A stretch of 24,891 nt of DNA, taken from the IMG/VR virus record IMGVR_UViG_3300010354_000604, positions 1-24,891 of that record. The stretch is one strand, 5' to 3'. This DNA comes from a virus. This document shows, one piece after another, positions 12,441 through 20,413 of this stretch. The position numbers and the translations under genes were made by a program. The first letter of the stretch is position 1. Each line of letters opens with the position of its first letter. The notes under the pieces were generated by a model that was given only the letters and a program-made list of their open reading frames with translations, ran no database searches and had not been told where the DNA came from.

Positions 12441-12470
12441 TTGACAGAATAGCTCAAACTGCTATATAAT
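12441..12470 (+). promoter_or_regulatory. near-consensus sigma-70 promoter
   Basis: TTGACA (12441-12446) and TATAAT (12465-12470) are separated by 18 bases and lie 29 bases before the ATG of the 394-residue gene. Both hexamers are full consensus. It contrasts with the late boxes of the surrounding genes and diverges from the gp14 late promoter 15 bases away. Confidence 0.85.
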
Positions 12471-12499: not shown

Positions 12500-13684
12500 A
12501 TGGCTACCAAAGCTGTTGCAAAAAAAGCAGCCACACCCACAGTTAAAAAGAGCGGCGTTAGGCGCAAACATTTGCCAGACGAAAAGTACACTGGCAGTGA
12601 ACCCCAGTGGGACACAGAACTTGCACTTAAAATGACAGACGAGGAGTTTGATCATCATCTGCGACGCAGTTTTTATTTTTATAACTATCATTATGCAGTT
12701 AAAGACCTAAAACCTGAGTTTGTCAAATGGTTGCAAGAACAAAAACATTTTGAAATTAGCAAAGCAGATCTTAGCAAGATCATTAAAAGTCGCTGGGTGC
12801 CCATGACTGCCTGTAGTTTAGTAATGGCACATGGTGTGGGCATGCCATTGCGCGGACGCACTCTTGAATATCTAAAAAACAGTGTGCAGGAAGTGTGTTT
12901 GAAATATGATTATTACAAAGAAGGCGACGAACAGCCCGTGGAAGAGGCACCTGTGCAGGCCAAAGTGCCCACTATTCAAGATCGCTTGAATGAACGTACC
13001 AGTGAATTGCTAGGCGAACTAGAAGGGCATTATGACGATGTGTGTGAAGGAAAAACATCTTTTGATGCTTACAAATTTCTTACCAGTAACAATGTGGTGC
13101 AAGGTCAACTCAGCAAGTATGAGGCACTGTATGCTGCTAGAAAAATTGAATTGGATGCTGCATACAACGGCTTGGATGCTGATCTAGTTGAAGGCTACAA
13201 ACACTATCGCGCAGCGGACTGGAAACGTATATTTGCCTGGATAGACAATCTGTTCACAGCCATAGAACAATATCGTGGAGTGAAAAAAGCCAGCAAGAAA
13301 GCACGAGTCAAAAAGGCTCCCAGCAAAGAAAAATTGGTAGGCAAGCTCAAATACTGCAAGGACTTTGCGCAGCTGAAGATTGTGAGTATCAACCCTGCAG
13401 AAATTGTTGGTGCACAAGAGCTTTGGGTTTACAACACCAAGACTCGCAAGCTGGGCAAATACATATCCAGTAACAGCGATGGACTTGTGGTCAAAGGCAC
13501 AACCATTGAAAACTTCACAGACAAAAGCGTGAGCAAAACACTTCGCAAGCCTGAGCAACAACTGTTGGAGTTTAATAAAAGTACCAAGGTACAATTGCGA
13601 AAGTTTTTAGAAAGCATCAAGGCCACAGAGACCTTGCTAAACGGACGTATCAACACTGACACTGTGCTGCTACGAGTACTCTAA
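12500..13684 (+). CDS. uncharacterised 394-aa protein, probably early expressed
   Basis: I do not recognise a named family. The start ATG has AGGAG at 12489-12493 (6-base spacing). Residues 1-23 are Lys/Ala-rich and basic. Residues about 24-125 form a compact-looking domain with DEEFDHHLRRSFYFYNYHYAVKDL and a helical segment ending in SRWVPMTACSLVMAHGVGMPL. An acidic linker lies near 133-145. A helical region follows at 148-260, then a very basic stretch at 263-282 and a final domain containing IVGAQELWVYNTKTRKL. The two basic segments could bind nucleic acid; this is inference. It is the only gene here with a full-consensus sigma-70 promoter, and it ends in the hairpin that also holds the gp13 promoter. 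Confidence 0.85.
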   Translation: MATKAVAKKAATPTVKKSGVRRKHLPDEKYTGSEPQWDTELALKMTDEEFDHHLRRSFYFYNYHYAVKDLKPEFVKWLQEQKHFEISKADLSKIIKSRWVPMTACSLVMAHGVGMPLRGRTLEYLKNSVQEVCLKYDYYKEGDEQPVEEAPVQAKVPTIQDRLNERTSELLGELEGHYDDVCEGKTSFDAYKFLTSNNVVQGQLSKYEALYAARKIELDAAYNGLDADLVEGYKHYRAADWKRIFAWIDNLFTAIEQYRGVKKASKKARVKKAPSKEKLVGKLKYCKDFAQLKIVSINPAEIVGAQELWVYNTKTRKLGKYISSNSDGLVVKGTTIENFTDKSVSKTLRKPEQQLLEFNKSTKVQLRKFLESIKATETLLNGRINTDTVLLRVL

Positions 13685-13688
13685 GTCC

Positions 13689-13724
13689 AAACCCCCGTCT
13701 GCATAAATACAGCAACGGGGGTTT
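13689..13724 (+). terminator. terminator-like hairpin enclosing the gp13 late promoter
   Basis: A perfect 10-bp stem pairs AAACCCCCGT (13689-13698) with ACGGGGGTTT (13715-13724). The T-rich end TTTCTT follows, and the start codon of gp13 comes at 13728. The 16-base loop contains the ATAAATA late box. It should terminate the upstream 394-residue gene's RNA and hide the GGGGG ribosome site of gp13 in any read-through RNA. The short T-tract makes strong termination less certain than the fold. Confidence 0.75.
13703..13709 (+). promoter_or_regulatory. late promoter for gp13, in the hairpin loop
   Basis: ATAAATA lies in the loop of the 13689-13724 hairpin. Six bases after it is 13715, the first base of the 3' arm. 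RNA from this promoter would therefore lack the 5' arm, start at about ACGGGGG and reach the ATG after some 13 bases. Confidence 0.7.
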
Positions 13725-13727
13725 CTT

Positions 13728-14861
13728 ATGGCCACACTAAAGCCAGGACTGAATTCTAAACAACACTTGATCACTGATAGCTTGGGCACACCGGGCCCTA
13801 TTGCCTACGACGAAACACAGTACGACAGCGTGGCAAAAAAACGCAAAGAAATAGAAGACTATGTGCGTTTTCGTTTGGGCGATGGCATGGTTGATGTTGA
13901 ACTGGATCCGGATCATTATAGAGTGGCCATTGATAGAGCACTGCTTCGCTATCGTCAACGTGCTGGCAACGGTGAAGAAGAAAGCTATGCATTTTTAGAA
14001 CTGCTGCCAGAAACACAAGAATACATCCTGCCGGAAGAAGTCATGACTGTGCGTCAAATATACCGCAGAGGTATTGGCAGTGTAACGGGAACCACTGCCA
14101 GTCAATTTGAGCCATTTGCCAGTGGCTATCTAAACACCTACATGCTGGTAGCGGGACGAGTGGGCGGGCTGCTCAATTATGAACTGTTCAGTCAGTATCA
14201 GGAACTGGCCATGCGCATGTTTGGCGGACACATGAATTTTACCTGGAATCCCATGAGTAAAAAGCTCACCTTGATTCGTAAGATTCCTGAAACCGGACAT
14301 GTTTACAAGCGTGTGAACAGCTTAACTGCCAGCGGTACCACAGCAGGCAGTACCATAACTATTACCTTTAGTGATGCCTGGAACGAAATCGTTGTAGGAG
14401 GCACCTTAGTTATTGCCAACTGTCCTGTGACTGGATATAACAATGCCTATGAAGTGCTTACTGTGGACAATGACAGCAAGGTGTTTACTATGGAAGCTCT
14501 TGGCAATCTAGGATCAGCCGCAGTGACCGGCAGCGACAGAGATCGCACCAGAGCATACAGTCCACAGAGCGATGATCCAGCAGAAACAGTTTTGCTGCAC
14601 ATCTATAACAAAAAGCCAGACAGCATGTTATTAAATGACAGTCGTATCTTTCCTTGGTTACAAGACTACTCTTTGGCAGTTGCCAAAGACATGCTTGGAC
14701 AAGCAAGAGAAAAGTTTGCGACCATTGCAGGACCACAAGGTGGCACACAGCTTAATGGTGGTGCACTAAAAACAGAAGCCAAGGCTGAAATGGAAGCACT
14801 TGAAGAAGAATTGAAACGTTTTTACGATGGCAGCATGCCATATACATGGGTTATTGGGTAA
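13728..14861 (+). CDS. 13: neck protein gp13-like
   Basis: A 377-residue protein; T4 gp13 has 309. Residues about 35-110 match the family: IEDYVRFRLGDGMVDVELD, then AIDRALLRYRQR, then SYAFLELLPETQEYILPEEVMTVRQI. Next comes a LLNYELFSQYQELAMRMFG helix and a FTWNPMSKKLTLIRKIP strand pair. In T4, gp13 binds the portal after DNA packaging and with gp14 prepares the head for the tail. Residues about 198-270 form an inserted beta module (TASGTTAGSTITITF, TGYNNAYEVLTVDN) closely resembling one in the giant structural protein. The C-terminus is helical and acidic. Its G-rich ribosome site lies in the 3' arm of the preceding hairpin. The stop overlaps the next ATG by one base. Confidence 0.85.
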   Translation: MATLKPGLNSKQHLITDSLGTPGPIAYDETQYDSVAKKRKEIEDYVRFRLGDGMVDVELDPDHYRVAIDRALLRYRQRAGNGEEESYAFLELLPETQEYILPEEVMTVRQIYRRGIGSVTGTTASQFEPFASGYLNTYMLVAGRVGGLLNYELFSQYQELAMRMFGGHMNFTWNPMSKKLTLIRKIPETGHVYKRVNSLTASGTTAGSTITITFSDAWNEIVVGGTLVIANCPVTGYNNAYEVLTVDNDSKVFTMEALGNLGSAAVTGSDRDRTRAYSPQSDDPAETVLLHIYNKKPDSMLLNDSRIFPWLQDYSLAVAKDMLGQAREKFATIAGPQGGTQLNGGALKTEAKAEMEALEEELKRFYDGSMPYTWVIG

Positions 14862-15241
14862 TGAAAATTAATGAGATCATAAACGAAGTACGTGCGGGTG
14901 AGCCCCCTGGTAATTATAAACAATCCAGTGCAGGACTGCATACTTTCAGCGACGGAGAAAGAGCAAATACGGACTACACTCACTATCGCCTTGGGCTAGC
15001 ATTAGCCTGCGCAGACGGTAAAGGGCAGCTGATTGATATGGATCCAAAAACCTTTTACGGTAAAAAACACACAGCTCATCCTTATACACAAGAGGAAGAA
15101 GACATGCTCAAACAAAGCTATAAAATAGTAGGAGCAAATTACAAAGATTTAAATAAAGGCAATCTTAACAGTATGGAAGTTCCAGAGGTAAACAAAACTA
15201 GTCCAACAGCCAAACCTAAGAAAAACAAGTACGGTGTTTGA
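14861..15241 (+). CDS. small protein with capsid-targeting-like N-terminus (126 aa)
   Basis: The frame is open from 14846, but the likely start is the ATG at 14861, which overlaps the gp13 stop (TAATG) for coupled translation. The N-terminus is MKINEIINE-V. It has the length and [LI]-x-E ending of the T4 capsid-targeting peptide (MKTYQEFIAE-A) that the gp21 protease removes from internal proteins. The body has FSDGERANTDYTHYRLGLALACADGK and GKKHTAHPYTQEEEDMLKQSYK. I recall a similar small family in other marine T4-like phages but know no function. The tail is Lys/Pro/Asn-rich. If packaged, it would be an internal head protein; this is inference. Confidence 0.8.
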   Translation: MKINEIINEVRAGEPPGNYKQSSAGLHTFSDGERANTDYTHYRLGLALACADGKGQLIDMDPKTFYGKKHTAHPYTQEEEDMLKQSYKIVGANYKDLNKGNLNSMEVPEVNKTSPTAKPKKNKYGV

Positions 15242-15267
15242 CCACCGAAGCAGTTTTAGTTTATAAT
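15238..15267 (+). promoter_or_regulatory. sigma-70-like promoter for dNMP kinase
   Basis: TTGACC (15238-15243, one mismatch from TTGACA) and TATAAT (15262-15267) have an 18-base spacer, the same as the promoter at 12441. The -35 box overlaps the stop codon of the preceding gene. The -10 box overlaps the 5' arm of the following terminator. The predicted start is near 15274, inside the hairpin loop. Confidence 0.65.
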
Positions 15268-15288
15268 GCCCCTAAGGGGGCATTTTTT
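15265..15288 (+). terminator. intrinsic terminator abutting the dNMP kinase start codon
   Basis: An 8-bp perfect stem (AATGCCCC at 15265-15272, GGGGCATT at 15277-15284) closes a TAAG loop and continues to TTTT. The next base is the A of the kinase ATG. The ribosome site AAGGGGG (15274-15280) is formed by the loop and 3' arm. The hairpin would both end upstream RNA and hide this site. Confidence 0.85.
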
Positions 15289-15981
15289 ATGATCATTGGT
15301 ATCAGCGGATTTATTGGTTCAGGCAAAGACACAGCAGCCAATTACTTGGTTGGCTTTCACGGATTCAGAAGAGACAGTTTTGCTGGCGCACTGAAAGATG
15401 CTGTGGCCACAGTGTTTGGGTGGGACCGCGAACTGCTAGAAGGCCTTACACCTGAAAGTCGTGCCTGGCGCGAGCAAGTAGACACCTGGTGGAGCCGGCG
15501 ACTGGCCATGCCTCATCTCACGCCCCGCTGGGTACTACAGCACTGGGGCACAGAAGTATGTAGGCAAGGATTTCATGACGACATTTGGATTGCTGCTCTT
15601 GAAAACAGACTACGACAGCGCACAGGTGACACAGTGATAACAGATGTACGTTTTCCCAACGAAATCAAGGCTATCAGAAATGCAGGCGGGATTCTTTGTT
15701 GGGTAAAACGTGGAGAACTTCCTGAATGGTATGATACTGCTTTACTAGAAAACACAACGCCTTTGGATAAGCAATGGTTACTAGAAGATGCGCATCAGCT
15801 TATGCCTCAAAAATATCCAAGAGTGCATGCCAGCGAATGGGCTTGGGTAGGTACTAGATTTGACCACGAAATTGATAATAACCATTCAGTGGAGCATTTG
15901 TATAATCAACTCAAAACCCTGGTACAGGTTCAGCAGGCTTCCATGGCAACCGCTCTTGATATAATACTTGCTGGCAGTTAA
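15289..15981 (+). CDS. 1: deoxynucleoside monophosphate kinase (T4 gene 1 type)
   Basis: A 230-residue protein; T4 gp1 has 241. It phosphorylates dNMPs, supplying dNTP synthesis during phage replication. The P-loop G-F-I-G-S-G-K-D is at residues 7-14. An SFAGALKDAVATVFGWDRE lid-like segment, an LQHWGTEVCRQGFHDDIW segment and VITDVRFPNEIKAIRNAGG follow, as in this kinase family. The open frame extends upstream to a TTG at 15238, but those codons fall in the terminator and promoter. The ATG at 15289, with AAGGGGG 8 bases upstream, is the credible start. The last 71 bases overlap the convergent HNH-like gene. As a nucleotide-metabolism gene with a sigma-70-type promoter among late genes, it is probably expressed early. 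Confidence 0.88.
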   Translation: MIIGISGFIGSGKDTAANYLVGFHGFRRDSFAGALKDAVATVFGWDRELLEGLTPESRAWREQVDTWWSRRLAMPHLTPRWVLQHWGTEVCRQGFHDDIWIAALENRLRQRTGDTVITDVRFPNEIKAIRNAGGILCWVKRGELPEWYDTALLENTTPLDKQWLLEDAHQLMPQKYPRVHASEWAWVGTRFDHEIDNNHSVEHLYNQLKTLVQVQQASMATALDIILAGS

Positions 15982-16261
15982 GACACACAGTGCGTAGATT
16001 TATTCTATCATTGTTTTTCAAATTACCATCAACATGAAACACTTGTAATTGTTTATCTGGTAGTTTGGCAATAAAATCACAATGGTCACACTGTGCTTTT
16101 TTCCTATAACCTGCCCTGTACCATGCTGGTATCTTTTTTGGTACACGTTTGCCTTTGCGTATGCAAGCATCACACCTTGATCTAAAGTGTGTGACCCCTT
16201 CAGAAATGTAGTTTACAGCCACTGGTCTTGAGCAGCAGGCTGGGCAAAGGTCTCTTTTCAT
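15911..16261 (-). CDS. zinc-binding HNH-like protein
   Basis: A 116-residue protein with two pairs of CxxC knuckles. C6-x2-C9 pairs with C30-x2-C33, and C58-x2-C61 with C93-x2-C96. Between the second pair lies F-H-V-D-G-N (75-80), then N-N and R-I-N-L-R-T-V-C, the H-x-D-x-N...N-L pattern of HNH nucleases. A basic region (residues 35-55) may bind DNA. It may be a small HNH nuclease, possibly linked to DNA processing, but the catalytic pattern is short. No intron or homing context is visible. Its last 71 bases are antisense to the end of dNMP kinase. There is no ribosome site, and a late box lies only 5 bases before the ATG. Confidence 0.72.
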   Translation of the reverse strand: MKRDLCPACCSRPVAVNYISEGVTHFRSRCDACIRKGKRVPKKIPAWYRAGYRKKAQCDHCDFIAKLPDKQLQVFHVDGNLKNNDRINLRTVCLNCQQVLYQERLPWKPAEPVPGF

Positions 16262-20387: not shown

Positions 20388-20413
20388 AAACCCGGGATTT
20401 CCCGGGTTTTTTT
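20388..20413 (+). terminator. intrinsic terminator after the tail tube gene
   Basis: A 9-bp perfect stem (AAACCCGGG at 20388-20396, CCCGGGTTT at 20401-20409) closes an ATTT loop and ends in seven Ts. It lies 19 bases after the gp19 stop. Confidence 0.92.

Follow-up and report, generated by a model that had tools for sequence, protein, structure and literature searches.

The promoter of a deoxynucleoside monophosphate (dNMP) kinase gene in a large myovirus probably serves also as a cis-acting RNA insulator, blocking the kinase start on read-through RNA. The DNA between the -35 element and the transcription start point would encode the 5′ arm of a hairpin, the 3′ arm being the ribosome-binding site of the kinase. 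All support for this reading is computational: sequence elements, their conservation and co-variation, their dependence on gene context and the predicted accessibility of the start, from which we infer start sites, timing, repression and termination.

The kinase start region

The window, the whole stretch of 24,891 nucleotides that was analysed, comes from IMG/VR and represents part of a large myovirus genome. The nearest long relative is a 355-kb contig, with a gp13 that is 96% identical. PA5oct, Atu_ph07 and the 121Q/GAP32 group fall below 50-60% protein identity to the window, and the window region, searched as nucleotide sequence against phage records, returned no match. A comparison of the region with Rfam 15 likewise gave no match above threshold, a single chance-level hit lying elsewhere.

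The kinase gene (15289..15981, + strand; PHROG 139, E 3e-50) follows an ORF without family assignment (14861..15241, + strand) that ends inside the kinase -35 element. This element, TTGACC (15238..15243), holds the stop codon TGA (15239-15241), an overlap also present in many relatives (KYGV-stop, encoded by ..GTTTGAC..). A terminating ribosome should therefore not reach the hairpin. With the -10 element TATAAT (15262..15267), the promoter matches the sigma-70 consensus at 11 of 12 positions over an 18-nt spacer, within the 16-18 spacing of this class, and is one of the top three promoter-like sites in the 20 kb scanned. The hexamers are conserved in relatives, the -10 as TAWAAT, while the spacer diverges.

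The -10 element reaches into the base of the 5′ arm, AATGCCCC (15265..15272), which pairs with the 3′ arm, GGGGCATT (15277..15284), to give a stem of eight pairs, five of them G-C. The loop TAAG (15273..15276) contains the predicted transcription start, A15274, 7 nt past the -10, and the loop/start geometry is conserved in 40 sequences. The Shine-Dalgarno-like AAGGGGG (15274..15280) lies mostly within the 3′ arm, and a T6 tract (15283..15288) touches the ATG at 15289, so that the site has the sequence of an intrinsic terminator in read-through RNA. The layout set out in the initial annotation, with TTGACC-18-TATAAT, an 8-bp hairpin, a T-tract touching the ATG and a start predicted in the loop, is exact.

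These features suggest the following scheme. RNA from upstream, predicted to be late, to start at the gp13 promoter and to cross the 14861-15241 ORF, would carry both arms and fold, blocking the kinase start; in the window version, the T6 tract would make the hairpin a probable intrinsic terminator too. Host sigma-70 polymerase starting at about 15274, in the loop, would produce RNA from which the upstream 5′ arm is missing, leaving AAGGGGG exposed for translation. Kinase synthesis would then follow the gene's own early-type promoter instead of late read-through. The labels late and early rest on motifs and analogy to T4; the four relatives tested encode a gp55-like late sigma factor, which supports the late-promoter reading. 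By calculation, opening the start region takes 13.4 kcal/mol when the RNA enters from upstream and 2.1 kcal/mol when it comes from the kinase promoter, in line with the earlier proposal that the kinase's own RNA frees its AAGGGGG site. That each gene is translated only from its own promoter, as was also proposed, is a prediction.

The window alone is not decisive, since terminator-like hits in the region show no excess over shuffled sequences (11 against 16.1) and the fold of 91 nt around the site has a z score of only -1.7. We nevertheless judge the pattern not to be chance, as had been claimed, because promoter and hairpin are kept together and co-vary in relatives.

Downstream, an HNH-endonuclease-like ORF on the - strand (15911-16261; weak PHROG match, E 2e-4) overlaps the 3′ end of the kinase gene and has the tail sheath gene on its other side.

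Other sites in the window

A second hairpin lies upstream of the gene for a gp13-like neck protein (head-tail adaptor Ad2; 13728..14861, + strand), the presumed source of late read-through RNA. Its 10-bp stem (13689-13698/13715-13724, + strand) ends three bases before the ATG at 13728, and its loop holds the late-type promoter motif CATAAATA (13702-13709), as befits a late gene. With few exceptions, relatives retain [C/T]ATAAATA or GCTAAATA within the hairpin, and their stems are altered in sequence on both sides with pairing retained. Both of the adjacent cases to which the initial annotation had drawn attention, late-type at gp13 and sigma-70-type at the kinase, are thus present in the sequence.

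An internal negative control is provided by a 12/12 sigma-70-type promoter (12441..12470, + strand) ahead of the next early-type gene (12500-13684), which has a homologue in the 355-kb relative. Here the neighbouring upstream gene points the other way, and no hairpin blocks the start.

A third hairpin (20388-20409) was considered as a further case and rejected, because its ATG does not open a long ORF and GATAAATA, of late type, follows. The segment 20388-20425 combines a strong terminator (nine pairs, T7) with GATAAATA directly after it; the ATG past the T-tract opens a two-codon frame only (ATGAGATAA), and the same is seen in the 355-kb relative.

Neither promoter-hairpin combination is a genome-wide rule in its literal form. 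Late promoters in hairpins were rejected as a general feature, 4 of 73 late motifs in the 355-kb relative lying in hairpins against 10 of 188 control motifs; gp13 is the conserved case. Promoter-in-terminator was rejected similarly. A scan of related genomes for starts in the loops of start-proximal terminators had been suggested, and of 162 terminator-like sites in the 355-kb relative just one, at the kinase, combines a promoter start in the hairpin with a gene ATG behind the T-tract. When seven relatives (885 kb in all) were scanned, the kinase was essentially the only place where a promoter start recurrently lay no more than 8 nt from a terminator loop with a gene ATG following.

The same seven relatives have an excess of promoter starts at a distance of about 50-60 nt on the downstream side of terminator loops. 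These genomes also contain terminator-then-promoter units, for example TTTTATGGTTGAC, in which the ATG is no gene start.

Kinase loci in relatives

The block TTGAC - 17/18 nt - TAWAAT - GCTCC - loop - GGGGC - ATTTTTT - ATG is kept in about fifty viral contigs, with divergence in the promoter spacer. Four scans of viral contigs yielded 216 distinct kinase loci, 182 of which carry a sigma-70-type promoter matching at least 9 of 12 positions near the ATG. The -10 lies either 5-7 nt or mostly 19-26 nt from the ATG, a bimodal distribution. We distinguish four layouts, the boundaries between them having been drawn after the sequences were seen. Layout A is that of the window and the sole one with a T-tract. 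In layout B, predicted to be leaderless, the repeat surrounds the -10 and the 3′ arm touches or spans the ATG. Layout C has the 5′ arm right after the -10, the Shine-Dalgarno sequence in the loop and the 3′ arm just before the ATG. In layout D, counted with C, the 5′ arm is just after the -35 and the 3′ arm on the Shine-Dalgarno sequence.

What these sequences share is predicted occlusion of the start site by a hairpin whose 5′ arm lies within the promoter; in layouts other than A it covers the Shine-Dalgarno sequence or AUG without a T-tract. The design rule put forward in the initial annotation holds in this broader form, recurring among relatives; promoter-in-terminator is only one version of it, and most of the distant relatives have the hairpin but no T-tract. 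Modelled opening costs agree, at 11.1, 6.8 and 9.3 kcal/mol in read-through RNA for A, B and C and 3.3, 0.4 and 3.7 kcal/mol in own RNA. Several promoter-bearing kinases show little occlusion (e.g. locus L011), and in the kinases of PA5oct and GAP32 the arrangement is absent.

Could the hairpin simply be an ordinary intrinsic terminator of the upstream operon, overlapping the promoter through genome compactness and with no selected effect on translation? The GC-rich 8-bp stem with T6 does score as a terminator, it is the first such site on the + strand downstream of gp13, and the T-tract is near-invariant among the 40 class A relatives. In class B and C relatives, however, the T-tract is gone and pairing with the ribosome-binding site or AUG stays. 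The sites of the 5′ and 3′ arms shift together, the 5′ arm following the -35 or the -10, and T4 gene 1 and regB, described below, have similar pairing and no T-tract. We consider this explanation unlikely.

Two observations on individual groups may be added. In one clade (L056, L057, L060, L062, L063, L065-L067, L069, L312-L334) just 5-7 nt separate the kinase -10 from the ATG, and an inverted repeat surrounds the -10; by sequence the kinase mRNA is predicted to be leaderless, in phages of presumably Gram-negative hosts. In Sinorhizobium phage Phosso (L122, 4899-4958), where no kinase promoter was identified, the kinase ATG comes after a hairpin of about 17 bp ending TTTTCT; its start occlusion is 13.9 kcal/mol, a value reached by 0/100 shuffles.

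Specificity of pairing and gene context

Pairing was assessed by a swap test on 100 non-redundant kinase loci, in which the segment from -35 to -1 was paired with its own leader or with the leaders of other loci. Own leaders paired better than swapped partners over all loci (0/2000 permutations), in layout C (0/2000) and in layout A (2/2000), although such tests reduce and do not remove the effects of shared descent. For layout B the result was 83/2000, or 0/2000 when the sequence was split inside the -10. Dinucleotide shuffles of the leader gave z scores of -11.3 (A), -7.0 (C) and -8.7 (B). Start occlusion in class C is 9.3 kcal/mol, against 6.0 with swapped upstream sequences. A fixed-register complement test gave class C a weaker signal (19 against 7.2, maximum 16) because the arms shift register.

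The arrangement depends on the neighbouring gene. An own promoter is found at 160 of 163 kinase loci behind a structural gp13/orf2 gene and at 2 of 25 behind an exonuclease gene; the latter kinases are mostly without promoter and hairpin. Occlusion differs in the same way, 10.1 kcal/mol behind gp13/orf2 and 5.0 behind the exonuclease (p 4e-8, uncorrected for descent). On the kinase tree there are five independent context switches, one of them well supported, and all or nearly all go in the expected direction; with only five, an independent-pairs test of context cannot reach significance. Changes of architecture number at least about 24 on this tree, which is in part weakly supported, and pairing persists through them.

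Other genes were compared in the genomes of eleven relatives. Those with their own promoter and a co-directional neighbour show the pairing (0/2000, 58 genes), whereas divergent genes with their own promoter show no clear pairing (113/2000, 23 genes). Among 402 promoter-free co-directional genes there is no consistent excess (45, 761 and 814 of 2000 in three subsamples). Examples in the 355-kb relative are two DnaJ-like genes and a 145-codon ORF (CCTCCTAGT..ACTAGGAGG-TTCTT-ATG). The pairing is confined to a minority of the relatives' genes.

These comparisons bear on whether shared ancestry and base composition are sufficient, the promoter-leader being inherited as a block and the pairing a by-product of promoter and Shine-Dalgarno consensus. 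Class A sequences are clearly homologous, and C-rich stretches past TTGACC tend to match a G-rich Shine-Dalgarno sequence. Yet swapped partners retain both consensus sequences and pair worse, the set was non-redundant with the shuffle scores given above, and divergent and promoter-free genes have little or no excess, all of which makes this account very improbable. Even less credible is that the inverted repeat serves a regulatory protein (a repressor, or RegA-like) as a DNA operator or RNA site and does not act as an insulator: palindromes around a -10 are typical of operators and in some class B repeats a perfect palindrome surrounds TATAAT, but stem sequences vary widely while complementarity persists, where an operator would keep its sequence, and G-U pairs (GCUCC/GGGGC) are workable only in + strand RNA.

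Comparison with known systems

We return to the proposal that the kinase promoter encodes an insulator. The principle of read-through occlusion is itself already known, from T4 late genes. Sequestration of the ribosome-binding site in read-through RNA is established for T4 genes e, soc, 49, I-TevI and others (PMC3014915). For gene e (lysozyme), the long upstream RNA hides the ribosome-binding site in a helix and the gene's own late promoter lies in the region of the 5′ strand (McPheeters et al. 1986; PMC3014915). In T4 I-TevI, I-TevII, I-TevIII and segB and in Aeh1 mobE, the site is hidden only when transcription begins at an upstream promoter, or hairpins at the site have been shown or implicated; genes so controlled are all late ones whose sequence is also present in early or middle RNA (PMC2988022). 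A review of T4 prereplicative transcription does not mention such structures for early genes (PMC2988021).

The window gp13 case, with its late-type promoter in the loop, matches gene e in form and fits the known late-gene pattern. The kinase resembles gene e in that a helix in read-through RNA can hide the Shine-Dalgarno sequence and/or AUG, the stem covering most of AAGGGGG, and in that the promoter is so placed that its own RNA, from the predicted start, would be without the 5′ strand. The differences are that gene e, being late and having a TATAAATA promoter, is guarded from early RNA, whereas the kinase has TTGACC-18-TATAAT and is presumably guarded from late RNA; the kinase hairpin also has a T-tract and abuts the ATG. 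By analogy, therefore, the kinase presumably reverses the known pattern, a sigma-70-type gene being shielded from late RNA. The kinase likewise shares with the I-Tev genes, segB and mobE a ribosome-binding site hidden in RNA started upstream, but those are late genes, while the kinase and T4 gene 1, regB, alc, modB and nrdC.8 have early- or middle-type promoters. A comparable logic operates in the IS10 and IS50 transposase genes, where outside transcripts fold over the start region and transcripts from the inside promoter are without the 5′ arm. There too the 5′ arm is present only in outside transcripts, as proposed for the kinase, but the setting is the ends of mobile elements, with no phage timing.

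Start occlusion in T4

T4 gene 1 (NC_000866, 75374-74649) encodes the same enzyme family and sits behind a late structural gene, gene 3. Its own promoter has TATAAT and a MotA-box-like TGCTTC, PM1 being annotated as putative in X03016, and a helix of 12-13 bp joins the promoter spacer to AACACAUGAAACU in the AUG region. It differs from the window kinase in its middle-type promoter, in having no T-tract and in that the helix covers the AUG and first codons. In Mosigvirus the helix is preserved by compensating changes (TAGCTCCGTATGTT/AACCTATGGAGCTA), and shuffled upstream sequences never match it (0/100 each). In most T4-like genera genes 3 and 1 overlap and there is no gene 1 helix; a search of viral contigs with T4 gp1 found only three near-identical loci. 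The helix is not reported in the T4 reviews consulted, which cover part of the T4 literature, and earlier descriptions of the gene 1 or regB leaders may exist.

When 215 T4 genes were ranked by read-through start occlusion, regB, nrdC.8, alc, e, 1, modB, segB, 49, motB.2, ndd.4 and I-TevI came first, the top dozen or so scoring 13.0-18.2 against a median of 4.6. The reviewed cases e, segB, 49, I-TevI and I-TevII rank at the top, and the measure therefore recovers known biology. The remaining top genes have early or middle promoters and own-RNA costs of 0.8-5.9. In the swap test, 46 T4 genes with a called promoter gave 0/5000. As a group, T4 genes with sigma-70 promoters are not more occluded than promoter-free genes (p 0.33); only a subset of genes is therefore involved.

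What appears new is the use of occlusion at sigma-70-type genes and its spread, with T4 gene 1, regB, alc, modB and nrdC.8 scoring in the model like the known cases. A wider generalisation, which we offer tentatively and hold a little short of even, is that in T4-type and related jumbo phages the never-transcribed part of a sigma-70-type promoter serves as an anti-start arm. An early/middle set (the kinase, T4 gene 1, regB, alc, modB, nrdC.8, motB.2, alt.-3, 30.8 and denV) would then be translated only from own-promoter RNA, a genome-wide translational privacy that would have arisen repeatedly, in several hairpin layouts, and would work at the kinase in the opposite sense to the late-gene cases.

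T4-like phages make long overlapping transcripts. If such filtering is true for sigma-70-type genes, RNA levels would be no guide to the protein output of those genes, the promoter sequence itself encoding a filter, and the arrangement would offer a compact natural design for gene insulation in synthetic operons. How mRNAs made at one time come to be translated at another remains open in a T4 transcriptome-proteome study (PMC9697503).

Around the starts of T4 regB, nrdC.8, alc, modB, motB.2, alt.-3, 30.8 and denV (NC_000866; L438, L469, L470), several early-promoter spacers complement their own Shine-Dalgarno region. The alc and alt.-3 genes have a near-identical promoter-leader block in common.
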